A stretch of DNA of 64,000 nucleotides from Thiobacillus sp. Its GTDB lineage: Bacteria; Pseudomonadota; Gammaproteobacteria; Burkholderiales; Thiobacillaceae. Shown in pieces: positions 19,646 to 57,275 of this stretch. Position numbers and translations under genes: made by a program. Position 1 is the first letter of the stretch, and each line of letters starts with the position of its first letter. Where the stretch lies: positions 1 through 64,000 of the forward strand of contig WGNC01000018.1 in assembly GCA_016124745.1 (NCBI GenBank), given 5' to 3'. Below the pieces are notes generated by a model. The model searched no databases. It saw nothing but the letters and a program-made list of their open reading frames with translations, and had not been told where the DNA came from.

Positions 19646-20617
19646 GTGAACGGGTTCGCTGTCCTGTATGCTTTTGTGGCATGCTGGCTAGGGTTGGCAG
19701 GCCTGCTGAAAAGCGGCAAACGTCTGCCTGTGGACCGGCCGAACGCACGTTCGCTGCATGTGGCCCCTACGCCGCGTATTGGCGGGTTGGGCATCATGGC
19801 CGGCATACTGGTGGCGGCGGTAGCTCTGGTCGCTCAGGGGCTACTGAAGGCCGAGTTGCCGGTGCTGATGGCAGCCTGTGTGCTGGCTGTGATTTCTGTT
19901 CTGGACGATGTGCGTGGCCTTCCGGTGGTGCTGCGCTTTCTGACGCATTTGATTGTGGCGGCCACCTGTCTTCTGGTGCTGGGGCTGACCGGTTGGAGCT
20001 TGCTGCTGGGCACGCTGGCCGTGGTATGGATGACCAATCTTTTCAACTTCATGGACGGCGCGGACGGTCTGGCAGGCGGCATGGGCGCACTGGGGTTTGG
20101 CGCATTGGCGCTTGCGGCGTGGCACGGCGATGCGCCGGGATTGTCGGTGTTTTGCGCGTCCATTGCTGCAGCTGCACTGGCTTTCCTGCGCTTCAATTTT
20201 CCGCCGGCACGGGTATTCATGGGCGATGCCGGATCGATTCCGCTGGGCTTTCTGGCGGCGTCACTGGGTATTCTGGGTGCGATGCAGCATGTGTGGCCGT
20301 GGATGTTTCCGCTGCTGGTGTTCTCGCCCTTCATCGTCGATGCCAGCGTGACGCTGGTTCGACGTGGCCTGCGTGGCGAGAAAATCTGGCAGGCCCACCG
20401 TTCGCATTATTATCAGCGCGTGGTGTTGATGGGCGCGTCGCATCGCCAGCTTGCGCTGAACGCTTATGTGCTGATGCTGGTCAATGCCGCACTGGCATTC
20501 TTGCTGTTGGGCACGCCACAGCATGCTGCATGGATTCTGGTTGGCTGGGCAGCCATGCATTCACTGATATTTTTGGCCATCGATCGACGTTGGCAACGTA
20601 CCTGCAATGAACATTAA
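19646..20617 (+). CDS. WecA/WbpL-like undecaprenyl-phosphate glycosyl-1-phosphate transferase
   Basis: Integral membrane enzyme that starts polymer synthesis by moving a sugar-1-phosphate from a UDP-sugar onto undecaprenyl phosphate. Multiple membrane helices surround the MraY/WecA motifs RSLHVAPTPRIGG, the Asp-Asp pair in VLDDVRG, NLFNFMDGADGLAGG, FMGDAGS, and AHRSHYYQR. The frame is open from an ATG at 19520, but the first 42 residues lack family character. I favour GTG at 19646 (323 residues); TTG at 19604 is also possible. It overlaps the next gene by 11 bases. The sugar donor cannot be read. Confidence 0.85.
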   Translation: MNGFAVLYAFVACWLGLAGLLKSGKRLPVDRPNARSLHVAPTPRIGGLGIMAGILVAAVALVAQGLLKAELPVLMAACVLAVISVLDDVRGLPVVLRFLTHLIVAATCLLVLGLTGWSLLLGTLAVVWMTNLFNFMDGADGLAGGMGALGFGALALAAWHGDAPGLSVFCASIAAAALAFLRFNFPPARVFMGDAGSIPLGFLAASLGILGAMQHVWPWMFPLLVFSPFIVDASVTLVRRGLRGEKIWQAHRSHYYQRVVLMGASHRQLALNAYVLMLVNAALAFLLLGTPQHAAWILVGWAAMHSLIFLAIDRRWQRTCNEH

Positions 20618-22460
20618 TTCCCGCATCGTCACCGTCATCCTGCACGACATTCTGGCGGCAGCGCTTGCCTGGATCGGCGCCTACTGGCTGCGTTTCAATC
20701 TGGCGATCCCCCCGGAGTATCTGGCGGCGGCCCTTTCCACCATGGCCTGGGTCGTCCCGCTGCAGACCGTTGTCTTCTGGCGCTTTGGCCTCTATCGTGG
20801 GATCTGGCGTTTTGCCAGCCTGCCCGATCTCAAGCGCATCATGCTGGCCGTTGGCATCGCGGCGCTGCTGAGCCCGCTGGTGTTGATCCTGTTCCGGATC
20901 AGTGCCGTGGTGCCGCGTTCGGTGCTGATTCTCGACCCCTTGCTGCTGCTCATCATCATGGGCGGCAGCCGCCTGGCCTACCGTGCCTGGAAGGAACACC
21001 GGCTGGTCAGCGTGCTGCATCCGAACAGCAGGCCGGTGCTGGTGGCCGGGGCCGGATCTGCGGCCGATTTTCTGCTGCGCGAGCTGGCGCGCAACCCGGC
21101 TGGATTTCATGTGGTGGGCTTGCTCGACGACAACCGGGAAAAGCACGGGCGGCTGGTGCAGGGCATTCCGGTACTGGGCGCGTTGAAAGACGTGGCGGAA
21201 TATTCGCGCAACATGCGGGTGGACGACGTTGTGCTGGCATTGCCGTCGGCCGCGCACGAATTGCGCCTGCGCATTACCCAGACCTGTTCCGACGCCGGGT
21301 TGAACGTGCTGACCGTCCCCTCGCTCGAGGATCTGGTGGCGGGACGCGTGTCGGTATCCAGCCTGCGCCGGATAGAGATCGACGACCTGCTGGGACGCGA
21401 TCCGGTGCAACTCGATGAAAGCGGCCTGCACAGCCTGCTGACCGGTCGGGTGGTGCTGGTGACAGGCGCCGGCGGCTCGATCGGGTCCGAGCTCTGCCGC
21501 CAGATTGCGCGTTTTGCACCCGCGAGGCTGGTGCTGTTCGAGCAGTCCGAGCTGGCGCTGTATGCGATGGAACAGGAGTTGCCCCAGCGATTCCCCGGCT
21601 TGCAGATTGCTCCGGTGATCGGTGATGTAAAAAACACCGACTGGGTCAACCTGGTGATGGAAGAGCATCGTCCCGCCGTGGTTTTCCATGCGGCCGCCTA
21701 CAAGCATGTACCGCTGATGGAGAACCGGAACGCCTGGGAGGCGGTGCGTAACAACGTGCTGGGCACGCAGATCGTCGCTGCCGCCGCACAGGCTTATGGC
21801 GTCGACAAGTTCGTGATGATTTCCACCGACAAGGCGGTCAATCCCACCAATGTCATGGGCGCAACCAAGCGACTCGCCGAGATGACCTGCCAGGCCATGC
21901 AGCAGCGTTTGCCAGACCTGAAACCTGACGGCACGCGCTTTGTCTCGGTGCGTTTCGGCAATGTGCTCGGTTCGTCCGGCAGTGTGATCCCCAAGTTCCA
22001 GAAGCAGATCGAGTCCGGCGGCCCCGTGACCGTGACGCATCCGGAGATCACGCGATACTTCATGTCGATTCCCGAAGCCGCGCAACTGGTTCTGCAGGCA
22101 GGCCTGATGGGAGAGGGGGGTGAAATTTTCGTGCTCGACATGGGAGAACCGGTCAGGATTGCGGATCTGGCCAGGCTCATGATTCGCCTGTCGGGCGCGG
22201 ACGAGGACAGGATTCGCATCGAATACACAGGCCTGCGCCCGGGCGACAAGTTATATGAAGAGCCGCTGGCGGACGACGAATCCACATTGCAGACACCGCA
22301 TCCCAAGCTTCGTGTTGCGAAAGCGCGCGCGGCCGATGCCAACTGGTACGCAGAATGTCTGGCCTGGCTGGTCCGACCCGGTGCATATGACGAAGCAGCG
22401 ATCAAGCGCCAGTTGAAGACATGGGTGCCGGAATATCAACCGGATTCGAAGCAGACGTGA
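20607..22460 (+). CDS. WbpM/CapD-like membrane nucleotide-sugar 4,6-dehydratase
   Basis: Inner-membrane enzyme that dehydrates a UDP-HexNAc as the first step to a 6-deoxy or bacillosamine-type sugar. The 617 residues have four membrane helices (about 10-125), a CoA-binding-like Rossmann segment (about 145-270), and a C-terminal SDR domain with GAGGSIGSELCRQI near residue 290 and MISTDKAVNPTNVMGATKR near residue 408. Length fits WbpM/PglF. Partnered with the overlapping initiating transferase upstream, it probably builds and loads the first sugar of a surface glycan. Confidence 0.9.
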   Translation: MNINSRIVTVILHDILAAALAWIGAYWLRFNLAIPPEYLAAALSTMAWVVPLQTVVFWRFGLYRGIWRFASLPDLKRIMLAVGIAALLSPLVLILFRISAVVPRSVLILDPLLLLIIMGGSRLAYRAWKEHRLVSVLHPNSRPVLVAGAGSAADFLLRELARNPAGFHVVGLLDDNREKHGRLVQGIPVLGALKDVAEYSRNMRVDDVVLALPSAAHELRLRITQTCSDAGLNVLTVPSLEDLVAGRVSVSSLRRIEIDDLLGRDPVQLDESGLHSLLTGRVVLVTGAGGSIGSELCRQIARFAPARLVLFEQSELALYAMEQELPQRFPGLQIAPVIGDVKNTDWVNLVMEEHRPAVVFHAAAYKHVPLMENRNAWEAVRNNVLGTQIVAAAAQAYGVDKFVMISTDKAVNPTNVMGATKRLAEMTCQAMQQRLPDLKPDGTRFVSVRFGNVLGSSGSVIPKFQKQIESGGPVTVTHPEITRYFMSIPEAAQLVLQAGLMGEGGEIFVLDMGEPVRIADLARLMIRLSGADEDRIRIEYTGLRPGDKLYEEPLADDESTLQTPHPKLRVAKARAADANWYAECLAWLVRPGAYDEAAIKRQLKTWVPEYQPDSKQT

Positions 22461-52502: not shown

Positions 52503-52877
52503 ATGGCCAAACGGCCCGTTTACCTCAACCTGTACCGAATTTATCTGCCGCTTGGCGGCTGGGTATCGGTGCTGCATCGGGTCTCGGGCGCGCTGCTGTT
52601 CGTCGCCATTCCGCTCGCCGTGTGGGGCTTGTGGGTATCGCTGTCCGGTGAGGCCGGTTACAGGCGCATGGCAGACTGTTTCGCGCAACCGCTGCCTCGG
52701 CTGATTCTGCTGCTGCTGATCTGGGCGCTGGCGCATCATGGTTTTGCCGGTTTGCGGCATCTGGCGCTGGATGTGCACTGGGGCCTGAGCTTGCGTTGCG
52801 CTCGTCAGACCAGCATTGCGGTATTGCTGGCCACCGGGCTGGTCACGCTGTGTGCGGCCTGGAGGCTGTTCGCATGA
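52503..52877 (+). CDS. sdhC: Succinate dehydrogenase cytochrome b556 subunit
   Basis: Membrane anchor of complex II, helping to bind heme b and ubiquinone. The 124 residues start MAKRPVYLNLYRIYLPLGGWVSVLHRVSGALLF, with the Ser and Arg of the quinone site in HRVSG and the heme histidine region LAHHGFAGLRHLALD. Three helices are evident. ATG 52503 has a GAGG box 9 bases upstream; an earlier in-frame ATG at 52488 has none. It overlaps sdhD. Confidence 0.93.
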   Translation: MAKRPVYLNLYRIYLPLGGWVSVLHRVSGALLFVAIPLAVWGLWVSLSGEAGYRRMADCFAQPLPRLILLLLIWALAHHGFAGLRHLALDVHWGLSLRCARQTSIAVLLATGLVTLCAAWRLFA

Positions 52878-53230
52878 AGCTGGCCACGGGATCGCACACC
52901 GGAACGGGCACCTGGCTGGTTCAGCGTGCCACGGCGGTGGTGCTGGCGATGGTATTGCCCGGACTGACGATCTGTTTTCTGGCCGCTTGGCCGACTGACT
53001 TTGCCGGCTGGCAGGCATTGTTCGCGCCGAGGTGGAGTCAGGTGCTGATCATGCTGACGGGTGTAGCGCTGGCGCTGCATGCCTGGGTGGGCATGCGCGA
53101 CATCTTCATGGACTATATCCACCCGGTCAGGCTGCGGCTGGCGCTGTATCTGGCTGTCATCACCACGCTGGCAGGCAGCATGGTATGGCTGGCGGCGATC
53201 CTGTTCGGCACGCCTGGGAGCACTTCATGA
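52874..53230 (+). CDS. sdhD: Succinate dehydrogenase membrane anchor subunit SdhD
   Basis: The second membrane anchor of complex II. The 118-residue protein has three helices, [14 protein letters not shown], and the conserved [17 protein letters not shown] segment near residue 65, which holds the heme histidine and the quinone-site aspartate/tyrosine. ATGA overlaps join it to sdhC and sdhA. Confidence 0.92.
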
Positions 53231-54981
53231 ACACGCGCCGCTTCGATGCGCTCATCGTCGGCGGCGGGGGCTCGGGGCTGCGCGCCGCATTGCAGCTGGC
53301 GCGCTCGGATTACACGGTCGCCGTGGTCTCCAAGGTATTCCCGACGCGCTCGCATACCGTGTCGGCGCAGGGCGGCATCACCGCGGCGCTCGCCAATGTC
53401 GACGACGACCGCTGGGAATGGCACATGTACGACACGGTCAAGGGCGGCGACTGGCTGGGCGACCAGGACGCGATCGAGTTCATGTGCCGCGAGGCATCCT
53501 CCGCTGTCTACGAACTCGAGCACATGGGCCTGCCGTTCTCGCGGCTCGACAATGGCAAGATCTATCAGCGTCCTTTCGGCGGGCAATCGAAAAATTTTGG
53601 CGGTGATCAGGCCACGCGCACCTGCGCCGCCGCCGATCGCACCGGCCATGCGCTGCTGCACACGCTGTATCAGCAGAACATCAAGCATCGCACGCAGTTC
53701 TTCGACGAATACTTTGCACTCGACCTGCTGCGCGACGCCGATGGCTATTGCCTCGGCGTCAGCGCCATCAGCATCGAAACCGGCGAGCCGCTGCTGATCG
53801 AGGCACGCACCACACTGCTCGCCACCGGCGGCGCAGGGCGGGTGTTCTGGAACAGCAGCAATGCCATGATCAACACCGGCGACGGCCTCGGCATGGTACT
53901 GCGCGCAGGGCTGCCGCTGCAGGACATGGAATTCTGGCAGTTCCACCCCACCGGCATCGCCGGCGTCGGCTGCCTGATCACCGAAGGCGTGCGCGGCGAG
54001 GGTGGCTATCTGCTGAACAAGAACGGTGAGCGCTTCATGCAGCGCTATGCACCGCACGCCAAAGACCTCGCCGGCCGCGACGTGGTGGCGCGCGCGATTG
54101 CCATCGAGATCGCCGAAGGACGCGGCTGCGGCCCGCGTGGCGATTACGTCGACATCAAGCTGGATCATCTGGGCGAGAAGCTCATCGCCGACAAGCTGCC
54201 GGGCATTCGCGACCTGTCGATCCGCTTTGCCGGGGTCGATCCGGCGCAGGCGCCGATCCCGGTCGCGCCGACTGCGCACTACATGATGGGCGGCATTCCC
54301 ACCAACCTGAATGGCCAGGTCGTCGCGCCGGCGCGCTACGGCCCCGAAGAGCCGGTACCCGGCCTGTATGCCGTTGGCGAATGCGCCTGCGTGTCGGTGC
54401 ATGGCGCCAACCGCCTCGGCGGCAATTCGCTGCTCGATCTCATCGTGTTCGGCCGCGCTGCGGGCCGCCACATGCAGGAGTATCTGCGCGATACGCCTTA
54501 TCCGCGTCCCTTGCCCGACCATGCGGCCGACGCAAGCCGTGCCCGCCTGCAGCGCTGGGAACAGCCAGGCAGCGAGCGGGTGGCGGCAATCGGAGACGAC
54601 CTGCGGCGCATGATGCAGGCGCATGCCGGCGTGTTCCGCACCGATGACGTGCTGCGTGAAGGCCTGGCCAAACTGGACGAATTGCAAGCCCGTCTGGCCC
54701 ACGCTGGCCTGCAGGACACCAGTCGCGTGTTCAACACCGCGCGCATCGAGGCGCTGGAACTGGAAAACCTGATGGGTGTCGCACGCGCGACGCTGGTCTC
54801 GGCGATCCACCGTACCGAGAGCCGCGGCGCACATACACGGGAGGATTTCCCCGAGCGTGACGACGAGCACTGGCTCAAGCACACGTTGTATTCGCTGGCG
54901 GGAGATCAGGTGGACACCAAGCCGGTGCGGCTGAAGCCGCTGACGGTGGAGTCGATACGGCCGAAGGAGAGGGTGTATTGA
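53227..54981 (+). CDS. sdhA: Succinate dehydrogenase flavoprotein subunit
   Basis: Oxidises succinate to fumarate and passes electrons to the SdhB iron-sulfur subunit. The 584-residue protein has the FAD motif [15 protein letters not shown], the covalent FAD site [15 protein letters not shown], the HPTGIAG active-site region, and [19 protein letters not shown]. Its length is normal and the C-terminus ends as usual in RPKERVY. The next gene should be sdhB, but a 545-bp repeat and then convergent pilus genes follow. Confidence 0.97.
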
Positions 54982-54996
54982 TGGGTCATCTTGCTT

Positions 54997-55541
54997 TGCA
55001 GCGGCTTCGCTTTTCGCCTATGGGCGAGTTACTTTCTTTTGCTTCGCCAAAAGAAAGTAACCAAAGAAAAGGCGACCCCGCATCGCTGCCCTACGGGTTC
55101 CCGATTTGGCGCGCACGGGCGGGCGCTCCACCAACTCGCCCTGGCACGGGGCACAAAACGCCCCGTGCTGCGGAACTCGGACACGGTTCCGCTCTCTTCC
55201 CGTCCGCACACGCCAAATCGGCAGCGCTGAAGGGGAACACGCCCCTGAACCGCCATCGCGTAAAGCAACCAGCTCGCCGAGCACTGGCGCCCGCATGGAT
55301 GCCCCTTGTGTGTCGCCGAGAAGCGCAGCCGGCCGAGGGGAAGAGGGGCTGGGTGTCCGAGCTCCGCAGTGAGCCGCGTTTTGTGCGGCTCGCCAGGGCG
55401 AATTCCAGCCCCGCCTCGGGTGGCGAGCATCGCAGGGGAGCCGCAGGCCGACACACCAGGGGTGGCCTTTTCTTTGGTTACTTTCTTTTGGCCACGCAAA
55501 AGAAAGTATCTCGCCCGCAGGCGAAACGCGAAGCCACCGCA
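54997..55541. repeat. 545-bp repeat element with long (~75 bp) terminal inverted repeats
   Basis: The left end (54997 to about 55075) and the right end (about 55460 to 55541) are near-perfect reverse complements, including TACTTTCTTTTG and AAGAAAGTAACCAAAGAAAA. The pattern matches a dispersed repeat that yields spurious ORFs with KKVTKEKATP-like translations in many proteobacterial genomes. The centre is GC-rich with further internal symmetry and no credible gene, although all frames are widely open. It fills the whole interval between sdhA and the end of mshE. Confidence 0.8.
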
Positions 55542-55577
55542 CATCCGCCGACGGCAAAAATAACGCGATTCCCATCC

Positions 55578-57275
55578 TCACACCCGCCCCGTCAAATCCA
55601 CCACCCTCGCCACTTCCGCCAGCGAGGTGATGCCGTCCTTCACGCGCTGGATGCCGTCTTCGGCCAACGGGTGATAGCCATGCTCGAAGGCCGCGCGGCG
55701 GATCTCATGCAGCGGCGCGTGATTGGCCACCAGTTCATCCAGCGTCGGATCCATGCGCAGCAGTTCGATCAGTGCCAGCCGTCCTTTGTAGCCCTTGTGG
55801 CTGCAGGCCGGGCAACCCACGGCGCGATAGATTTGCGGCGGCTGCCCGGAGTCGACGCCGAGCAGGGCGGCTTCGTGCTCGTCCGGCGCGTAGGCTTCCT
55901 TGCAGTGGGGACACAGTTTGCGGATCAGGCGCTGTGCGATGACGCCGATGATGTTGCCGGACAGGATGCCCGGCTGGATGCCGATGTCCATCAGGCGCGG
56001 AAACACGCCGAGCGCGGAGTTGGTGTGCAGGGTGGTGAACACCTGGTGGCCGGTCATGGCGGCGCGGAAGGCCATTTCGGCGGTGTCCTTGTCGCGGATT
56101 TCGCCGACCAGAATGATGTCGGGATCCTGCCGCATGATCGAGCGGATGCCGTTGGCGAAATCGAGCTTGAGCGTTTCGTTGACCGAACTCTGGCGCATCA
56201 GGGTGACCGGGTATTCGACCGGGTCTTCCAGCGTCATGATGTTGACGGTCTCGTTGTTGAGATGCGACAGCATCGAATACAGCGTGGTGGTCTTGCCGGA
56301 GCCGGTCGGGCCGGTCACCACGAGAATGCCTTCCGGACGCGCCATCATCAGTTGCAGTTCGCGCAGCGCATCGGGCGTGAAGCCCATGTATTCCAGCGGC
56401 ATGATGGATTTTTCGCGGTCGAGGATGCGCAGCACGAGGTTCTCGCCATGGATGCCGGGCTGCGAGGAGACGCGGAAGTCGATCGGGCGGCCGTTCAGCG
56501 TGAGCGACATGCGGCCGTCCTGCGGTGCCCGCGTCTCGGCGATATTCATGCCGCACATGACCTTGAGCCGCACCAGGATGCCTGGCCAGTAGGTCTTGTG
56601 CAGGCTGCGGACCTGTTCCAGCACGCCGTCGATGCGGTAGCGGATGCGCAGGAAAGCGTGCTCGGGTTCGAAGTGGATGTCGCTCGATTCGCGCTTCACC
56701 GCATCGGTCAGCAGCGCGCCGACCAGCCGCACCACCGGCTGGGTGTATTCCTCGGTCTCGGGGTTGAGGCTGGCGTAATCGACTTCGCCCGTCTCGATTT
56801 CGCGCAGGATGCCGTCGAGCGAGAGGTCGAAGCCGTAGAACTTGTCGATGCATTCGAGCAGTTGCGCTTCGCCCGCAAGCAGGGTATCGATCTCCAACTG
56901 GCCGCCGAGCGCGGCTTTCAACTGGTCGAGTGCGACCACGTTGAACATGTCGGTGGTCGCCAGCGTCAGCACGTTGCGCGCAGCGTCGTGGGCGATCGGC
57001 AACAGATGGTGGCGGCGGGCGAATTCCTCGGGCACCAGCTGCAGCGCTTCGGGATCGGCCACCACCTGGGAAAGGTCGATGCCCTGGCTGCCGAGCGCGT
57101 TGGCGAGCTGATCGCGCAATACCGCCTCGGTCATGAAGCCGAGCGCGACGAGCTGGCGACCGATCGGCAGGCCGGTCGTCTTCTGTTCCTTCAGGCCGAT
57201 GCGCAGCTGGTCGAGCGTGATGAGTCCCTGTGCAGCCAGGGATTCGCCCATGCGGAGTTTTTTGCGGCGCTCCAT
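55578..57275 (-). CDS. mshE: MSHA-type pilus assembly ATPase MshE (GspE/PilB family)
   Basis: Hexameric secretion ATPase that powers pilus extension. The 565 residues hold a MshEN/GspE N-terminal domain (about 1-150, GESLAAQGLITLDQL), ESSDIHFEP, Walker A GPTGSGKTTTLYSML near residue 320, the Asp box region, and GEIRDKDTAEMAFRAAMTGH. A C-terminal zinc motif has two CxxC pairs (CPHC and CPAC). Last in the operon; mshG, which normally follows, is absent. Confidence 0.92.
   Translation of the reverse strand: MERRKKLRMGESLAAQGLITLDQLRIGLKEQKTTGLPIGRQLVALGFMTEAVLRDQLANALGSQGIDLSQVVADPEALQLVPEEFARRHHLLPIAHDAARNVLTLATTDMFNVVALDQLKAALGGQLEIDTLLAGEAQLLECIDKFYGFDLSLDGILREIETGEVDYASLNPETEEYTQPVVRLVGALLTDAVKRESSDIHFEPEHAFLRIRYRIDGVLEQVRSLHKTYWPGILVRLKVMCGMNIAETRAPQDGRMSLTLNGRPIDFRVSSQPGIHGENLVLRILDREKSIMPLEYMGFTPDALRELQLMMARPEGILVVTGPTGSGKTTTLYSMLSHLNNETVNIMTLEDPVEYPVTLMRQSSVNETLKLDFANGIRSIMRQDPDIILVGEIRDKDTAEMAFRAAMTGHQVFTTLHTNSALGVFPRLMDIGIQPGILSGNIIGVIAQRLIRKLCPHCKEAYAPDEHEAALLGVDSGQPPQIYRAVGCPACSHKGYKGRLALIELLRMDPTLDELVANHAPLHEIRRAAFEHGYHPLAEDGIQRVKDGITSLAEVARVVDLTGRV

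Follow-up and report, generated by a model that had tools for sequence, protein, structure and literature searches.

The window analyzed here, a stretch of 64,000 nucleotides (positions 1 to 64,000 of the forward strand of contig WGNC01000018.1, Thiobacillus sp. assembly GCA_016124745.1), contains the complex II genes sdhC, sdhD and sdhA and, on the opposite strand, mshE of a pilus operon, and between sdhA and mshE lies a hairpin element with two inverted arms (Table 1). In our numbering of genomes (G), contigs (C) and loci (L), the window belongs to contig C38 of assembly G000, which comprises 48 contigs and 3.35 Mb. An original prediction described sdhC-sdhD-sdhA as running in perfect overlaps and both operons as apparently cut at an inverted repeat, with sdhB and mshG missing. 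The overlaps are borne out by ATGA motifs at 52874-52877 (sdhC/sdhD) and 53227-53230 (sdhD/sdhA), and neither sdhB nor mshG is found within 54981-55578. The inverted repeat is real, with arms of 83 nt at 54997-55079 and 55459-55541 that are 89% complementary and nested pairs in addition. Both operons do stop beside the element, but not directly at it, as short spacers intervene on either side. SdhA has 584 aa and scored 85–93% against full-length matches in relatives, its closest named match (92%) being a Thiobacillus metagenome-assembled genome, which puts the window in Thiobacillus or very close to it. The three frames beyond mshE contain TPR, secretin and AAA_22 domains, which fit mshN, mshL and mshM, respectively. 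Based on feature positions, contig ends, mismatches between element copies and the state of the two sites in relatives, an artificial join of the two operons is the most likely explanation of this arrangement.

Partner genes in the same genome and in relatives

The original prediction proposed that sdhB-sdhE-gltA and mshG be sought beside other copies of the repeat, and this search was positive within the same genome. A domain match placed sdhB at G000:C42:19667-19978(-), the Fer2_3 domain having a single match in the genome, and sdhE (Sdh5) and gltA (Citrate_synt) adjoin it; mshG was found at G000:C27:20352-21332(-). Both contigs end inside the element, the match running to base 20195 of the 20195-bp C42 and to base 21790 of the 21790-bp C27. 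C27 holds the left part of the element, 98% identical to the window, and C42 holds the right part, 97% identical. In the aligned stretches, C42 agrees exactly with the window over its first 127 bases and then differs at 55478 and 55531, and C27 shows six differences up to 55158 and is then exact to the contig end at 55248. A word length of 127 is common among graph assemblers. Bases 55249-55350 of the element are present only once in the assembly, and no further long copies were found in the same genome (8 matches, with 27 of 27 candidates scored).

The spacers between genes and element were compared with 26 filled gaps of relatives, using four stretches of the own genome that take in a few bases of the element, and shuffles from the 5' side only. 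Each of the four own spacers had its top score against the corresponding site in relatives. The best matches of the sdhB-side spacer were in G031 and G068, and those of the mshG-side spacer in G029 and G077. For the sdhA-side spacer, the runner-up at half the score was a tie of one msh gap and one sdh gap.

Gene order was compared across a genus set of 56 genomes including the own genome, of which 54 had loci in the analysis (none for G009 and G028). The loci of 43 relatives show the 3' end of sdhA, and 41 of these have sdhB next, at 2–738 bp; of the 45 relatives with a visible 3' end of mshE, 42 have mshG next, at 5–650 bp. The element occupies the sdhA-sdhB gap in 11 relatives and the mshE-mshG gap in 15; in four genomes (G020, G023, G068, G077) both copies could be placed, each in its own operon. 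None of the 99 loci from relatives combined sdhA with mshE, sdhA with mshG, mshE with sdhB or mshG with sdhB, so that the comparison of gene order suggested by the original prediction did not recover the junction elsewhere. In the single-contig genomes G011 and G024, sdhA and mshE are about 0.67 Mb and 0.90 Mb apart, respectively. Contigs ending in the element also occur in the Thiobacillus assemblies G005, G069, G076 and G022.

Interpretation of the join

We consider it highly probable that the sdhA-mshE join is an assembly chimera from an organism with sdhA-element-sdhB and mshE-element-mshG. With near-identical copies of about 545 bp in both the sdhA-sdhB and the mshE-mshG gap, the assembler could have entered the element from sdhA and left it towards mshE, so that the contigs of the two remaining flanks broke off within the element. 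The crossing would have been possible because up to 319 bp lack any known difference between the copies. In the organism itself, both operons would then be intact, with the element occupying an intercistronic gap of each. Since both sites are filled in related genomes, sdhA-element-sdhB plus mshE-element-mshG is also the simplest genome to assume. The pattern resembles the chimeric contigs that repeats induce in short-read assemblies, in which the flanks are swapped at the repeat and the partner contigs end inside it, and departs from it in that contigs of several assemblies in the genus break off at this one element.

Several observations weigh against this explanation. A real exchange whose reciprocal junction remained unassembled would yield identical contigs. 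The graph-assembly signature seen here is asymmetrical, as C27 shows just 90 exact bases past its last mismatch and not 127. Moreover, among the loci read, the partner gene did not follow sdhA in G002 and G064, nor mshE in G069, G071 and G076. The sdhA of G002 lies close to a contig end, the mshG of G069 is on a contig ending in the element, and the mshE of G076 has the element alongside near a contig start. G064 is a clear exception, with sdhA (C5:107232-108983) and sdhB (C31:13601-14293) on different contigs, and thus indicates that separation of the pair can occur; here the gene after sdhA is a convergent DoxX gene, sdhB has a Phage_capsid reading frame in its vicinity, and no element copy was found beside sdhA.

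A true recombination between the copies in this lineage, linking sdhCDA with the msh genes and sdhB-sdhE-gltA with mshG, appears improbable, even though the copies are 97–98% identical where both are seen, are long enough to recombine, and are flanked by complete genes on both sides of the join. The two reciprocal halves each stop at a dead contig end, the junction is absent from all 99 loci of relatives, and the exchange would cut the sdhC end of the operon off from sdhB, sdhE and gltA; if the copies were direct repeats on the chromosome, a large deletion would result. A recombination switch, with both arrangements coexisting and a mixed population having been sampled, seems very improbable. 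The occurrence of the element in either orientation relative to the operon and the intermixing of copies from the two sites in the copy tree would suit such a switch, but no swapped state was seen in the loci read from relatives, which do not cover both gaps in every genome. Of the recombination between dispersed copies put forward by the original prediction, a crossover between two copies of the element is supported, with sdhB and mshG each located beside one; the evidence favors its alternative, an assembly join, because the partner contigs end in the element and relatives keep the gene pairs together, and the copies are not dispersed in the usual sense, the long form having been found at only two sites in the genus. 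The join would mislead users of the genome, as it makes the complex II and pilus operons look broken when they are very probably intact.

Table 1 Coordinates of the genes, spacers and element features at the sdhA-mshE junction, and of the one-arm relative.
Feature	Position	Strand	Remarks
sdhC	52503..52877	+	Pfam Sdh_cyt; stop overlaps sdhD start
sdhD	52874..53230	+	Pfam Sdh_cyt
sdhA, complete	53227..54981	+	Pfam FAD_binding_2 and Succ_DH_flav_C; sdhB expected next
Spacer sdhA-element, 15 bp	54982..54996	+	Best match: sdhA-side spacer of G005
Hairpin element, 545 bp, two inverted arms	54997..55541	.	As assembled, probably sdh copy on the left and msh copy on the right
Hairpin H1-left	55028..55061	.	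GTTACTTTCTTTTG / CAAAAGAAAGTAAC; pair counts made
Hairpin H2-left	55144..55168	.	Both-side changes at 5/9 pairs
Stretch in which the two own copies show no known difference	55159..55477	.	Putative crossing from sdh copy to msh copy
Hairpin H2-right	55369..55393	.	Both-side changes at 4/9 pairs
Hairpin H1-right	55479..55508	.	Sequence; pair counts made
Spacer mshE-element, 36 bp	55542..55577	-	Best matches: mshE-side spacers of G067, G029, G077
mshE, complete	55578..57275	-	Pfam T2SSE and MshEN; mshG expected next
One-arm relative, own genome	C31:41291-41460 (L017:6292-6461)		nrdA-nrdB gap
One-arm relative, other loci	L244, L282-L292, L307-L309, L311		nrdA-nrdB gap

The element in the genus Thiobacillus

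The genus set was searched with the inner 371 bases of the element as query, with at most 12 candidates scored per genome and a long copy defined by at least 160 bits. Matches were obtained in 33 of the 56 genomes, with at least 32 long copies in 25 relatives (overlapping pieces in G029 being counted as one). The 32 long copies found were located at the sdh site (13) or the msh site (19) and at no other, with one or two copies of the long form per genome; six of them, with one flanking gene seen, are at the edge of a contig or close to it (G005:C3, G022, both of G069 and both of G076). The matches below 160 bits were mostly inverted self-matches of long copies, that of G074 being a remnant in the sdh gap. 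Gaps shorter than 60 bp were found at 23 of 42 scored sdhA sites and 7 of 41 scored mshE sites, the own genome being counted as filled. By eye, the gaps of G073, G011 and G027 appear to hold an end remnant. In G020, G023, G068 and G077 the two copies are opposite in orientation relative to their operons, an arrangement that the own genome would fit.

Presence of the element required 10 changes on the sdhA tree and 14 on the mshE tree, and its clustering was not above that of shuffled labels, 207 of 500 (sdhA) and 470 of 500 (mshE) shuffles giving values as low. For these trees both sites of the own genome were entered by hand as filled, any gap shorter than 60 bp was taken as empty, and rows with less than about 380 bases of the gene were left out, G068 being absent from the mshE rows. 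The gene and copy trees were built from short searches, some rows holding about a quarter of the gene. In the copy tree (26 copies of relatives plus the window), the two sites intermix with 8 site changes, at least 4 of which are forced by well-supported branches. Certain spacers look alike by eye across species, which indicates that part of the distribution probably reflects inheritance followed by loss. Homogenization of the copies within genomes was rejected as a general rule, as the identities of 88–94% within genomes (four relatives) are close to the between-genome means of 84–89%.

A one-arm relative of about 165 bp was located between nrdA and nrdB in 17 of the 18 loci followed among the matches below 160 bits at other places, with both genes visible in 16 (Table 1). 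In L284 the contig ends before nrdB, one locus (G072; L311) holds only short pieces, and the eighteenth locus, G010:C43, has a 32-base match that is not at nrdA/nrdB. Repeats of the GAGCTTGTCGAAG type lie beside the one-arm element in the nrdA-nrdB gap, at L017:6555-6680.

The same gaps are occupied by other units in other Thiobacillus genomes. In the sdhA-sdhB gap of G006, G015, G026, G071 and G078 there is a GIY-YIG-like frame (PF01541) with CATTGCGAGG inverted repeat ends, and in the mshE-mshG gap of G001, G002, G014 and G034 a PDDEXK_3-like frame (PF13366) bounded by CACAGAG repeats, that of G014 appearing broken; for each of the two assignments, one example was tested with Pfam. These nuclease units share their sites with the element and differ from it in carrying a gene and in having unrelated end repeats. 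Small units bounded by repeats appear to have landed in the sdhA-sdhB and mshE-mshG gaps again and again. By eye, a unit of 115–147 bp with GGTCAGGATTCAGG-type inverted repeats was also seen in the mshE-mshG gap of G006, G015, G026, G031, G035 and others.

A 59-bp end motif of the element is more widespread than the long form (at most 9 candidates scored per genome). Inverted pairs of this motif bound longer units elsewhere (L228:550-2160, L229:540-2190 and L230:540-1500), whose genes are unrelated and encode a P63C protein, a protein of 359 aa that matched no Pfam family, and an RraB-like protein. Searched against plasmids, the end motif matched a single record, from Ilyobacter polytropus, with 6 places and a best match of 92% over 52 bases.

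Character and possible role of the element

No gene was recognized in the element. Folded as RNA, positions 54982-55577 reach a predicted -334.5 kcal/mol compared to a shuffled mean of -243.1 kcal/mol (z = -11.65; none of 100 shuffles as good). A search of Rfam in E-value mode returned 8 matches, all far under the gathering scores and with E of 2.2 or worse, and a literature search over titles and abstract openings of open-licence PMC papers found no description of the element.

Covariation was assessed in an alignment of 21 copies, consisting of the window and 20 of 26 copies of relatives (those of G010, G016, G029, G064 and G066 and the msh copy of G020 were omitted). In the four short hairpins 97.5% of cells are paired, and both-side changes affect 15 pairs and 43 cells, compared to 5.6 and 11.9 after shuffling (none of 500 shuffles as high), although relatedness of the sequences inflates these and all other covariation counts. 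It is mainly the two inner hairpins that carry the both-side changes. The long fold as a whole had 57 both-side-changed cells against a shuffled 34.7 (a number reached by none of 500 shuffles), much of this from the inner hairpins, and 19 pairs with both-side change against 17.7, which is no excess (179 of 500 as high); most of the outer long-range pairs hardly vary. The copy at the mshE site of G077 (L178:3236-3812) has about 33 extra bases within the first hairpin.

The element may have a role in the transcript. It is conceivable, if somewhat doubtful, that selection maintains the element for an RNA structure within the operon, acting in processing, stability or attenuation, and that it is not mainly selfish. 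The known sites between genes of one operon would be in keeping with such selection, as would the surplus of both-side-changed cells in the short hairpins and in the long fold. Against this stand the scattered presence of the element, with many gaps under 60 bp, its variable orientation and the lack of any excess of both-side-changed pairs in the long fold; template switching during replication can, moreover, keep palindromes complementary without selection.

The element behaves as a non-coding hairpin element that is limited to a few operon-internal gaps and often gained and lost, and we favor the view that it is non-autonomous and moved by some enzyme. REPINs are REP doublets that form hairpins (PMC3116915). 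They share with the element inverted palindromic ends, a non-coding and extragenic nature, a hairpin predicted in single-stranded DNA or mRNA and the lack of a transposase of their own. The inverted palindrome pair forming a hairpin is thus present here, as a prediction, but the element is about 545 bp long with four short hairpins, and the long form sits at two sites, in contrast to the many dispersed copies of REPINs; a high copy number over extragenic space was not found for the long form. A RAYT-type Y1_Tnp domain was matched in 17 of the 25 carrier relatives and once, at cut-off, in the own genome, and no match was obtained in 16 of 56 genomes. These include 8 of the 25 carrier relatives, and a RAYT-driven REPIN origin is hence not supported.

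Miniature inverted-repeat transposable elements (MITEs) are similar in their inverted ends, corresponding here to the 83-nt arms, in needing no coding capacity and in their scattered presence, and they differ in that the long form of the element is confined to two sites. No target-site duplication could be discerned by eye, the borders of filled sites having diverged, and short sdh gaps often retain a TGATG stop/start overlap. No parent transposase was identified, Y1_Tnp being the only kind sought. The element may be tolerated in operon-internal gaps because neither flanking gene is broken, and its end motif is held in common with gene-carrying units.

We tentatively raise the possibility, which we regard as rather unlikely, of an undescribed Thiobacillus family of non-coding hairpins that copies itself between gaps of a few core operons, with gains and losses recurring at identical positions. 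Its sites, proposed with equal reserve, would be sdhA/sdhB and mshE/mshG for the two-arm form and nrdA/nrdB for the one-arm form. Repeated gain and loss at the same gaps would point to a targeting step involving DNA structure, a nuclease or the transcript, unlike known REPINs or MITEs.

The presence of a half-kilobase hairpin in the same gap between the flavoprotein gene sdhA and the iron-sulphur gene sdhB across a number of species poses the question of why it is there, and further of what copies the element into this gap and, in its long form, into just one other operon. With a small number of known sites, cultured Thiobacillus offers a direct way to test for presence, absence and effects on the transcript.

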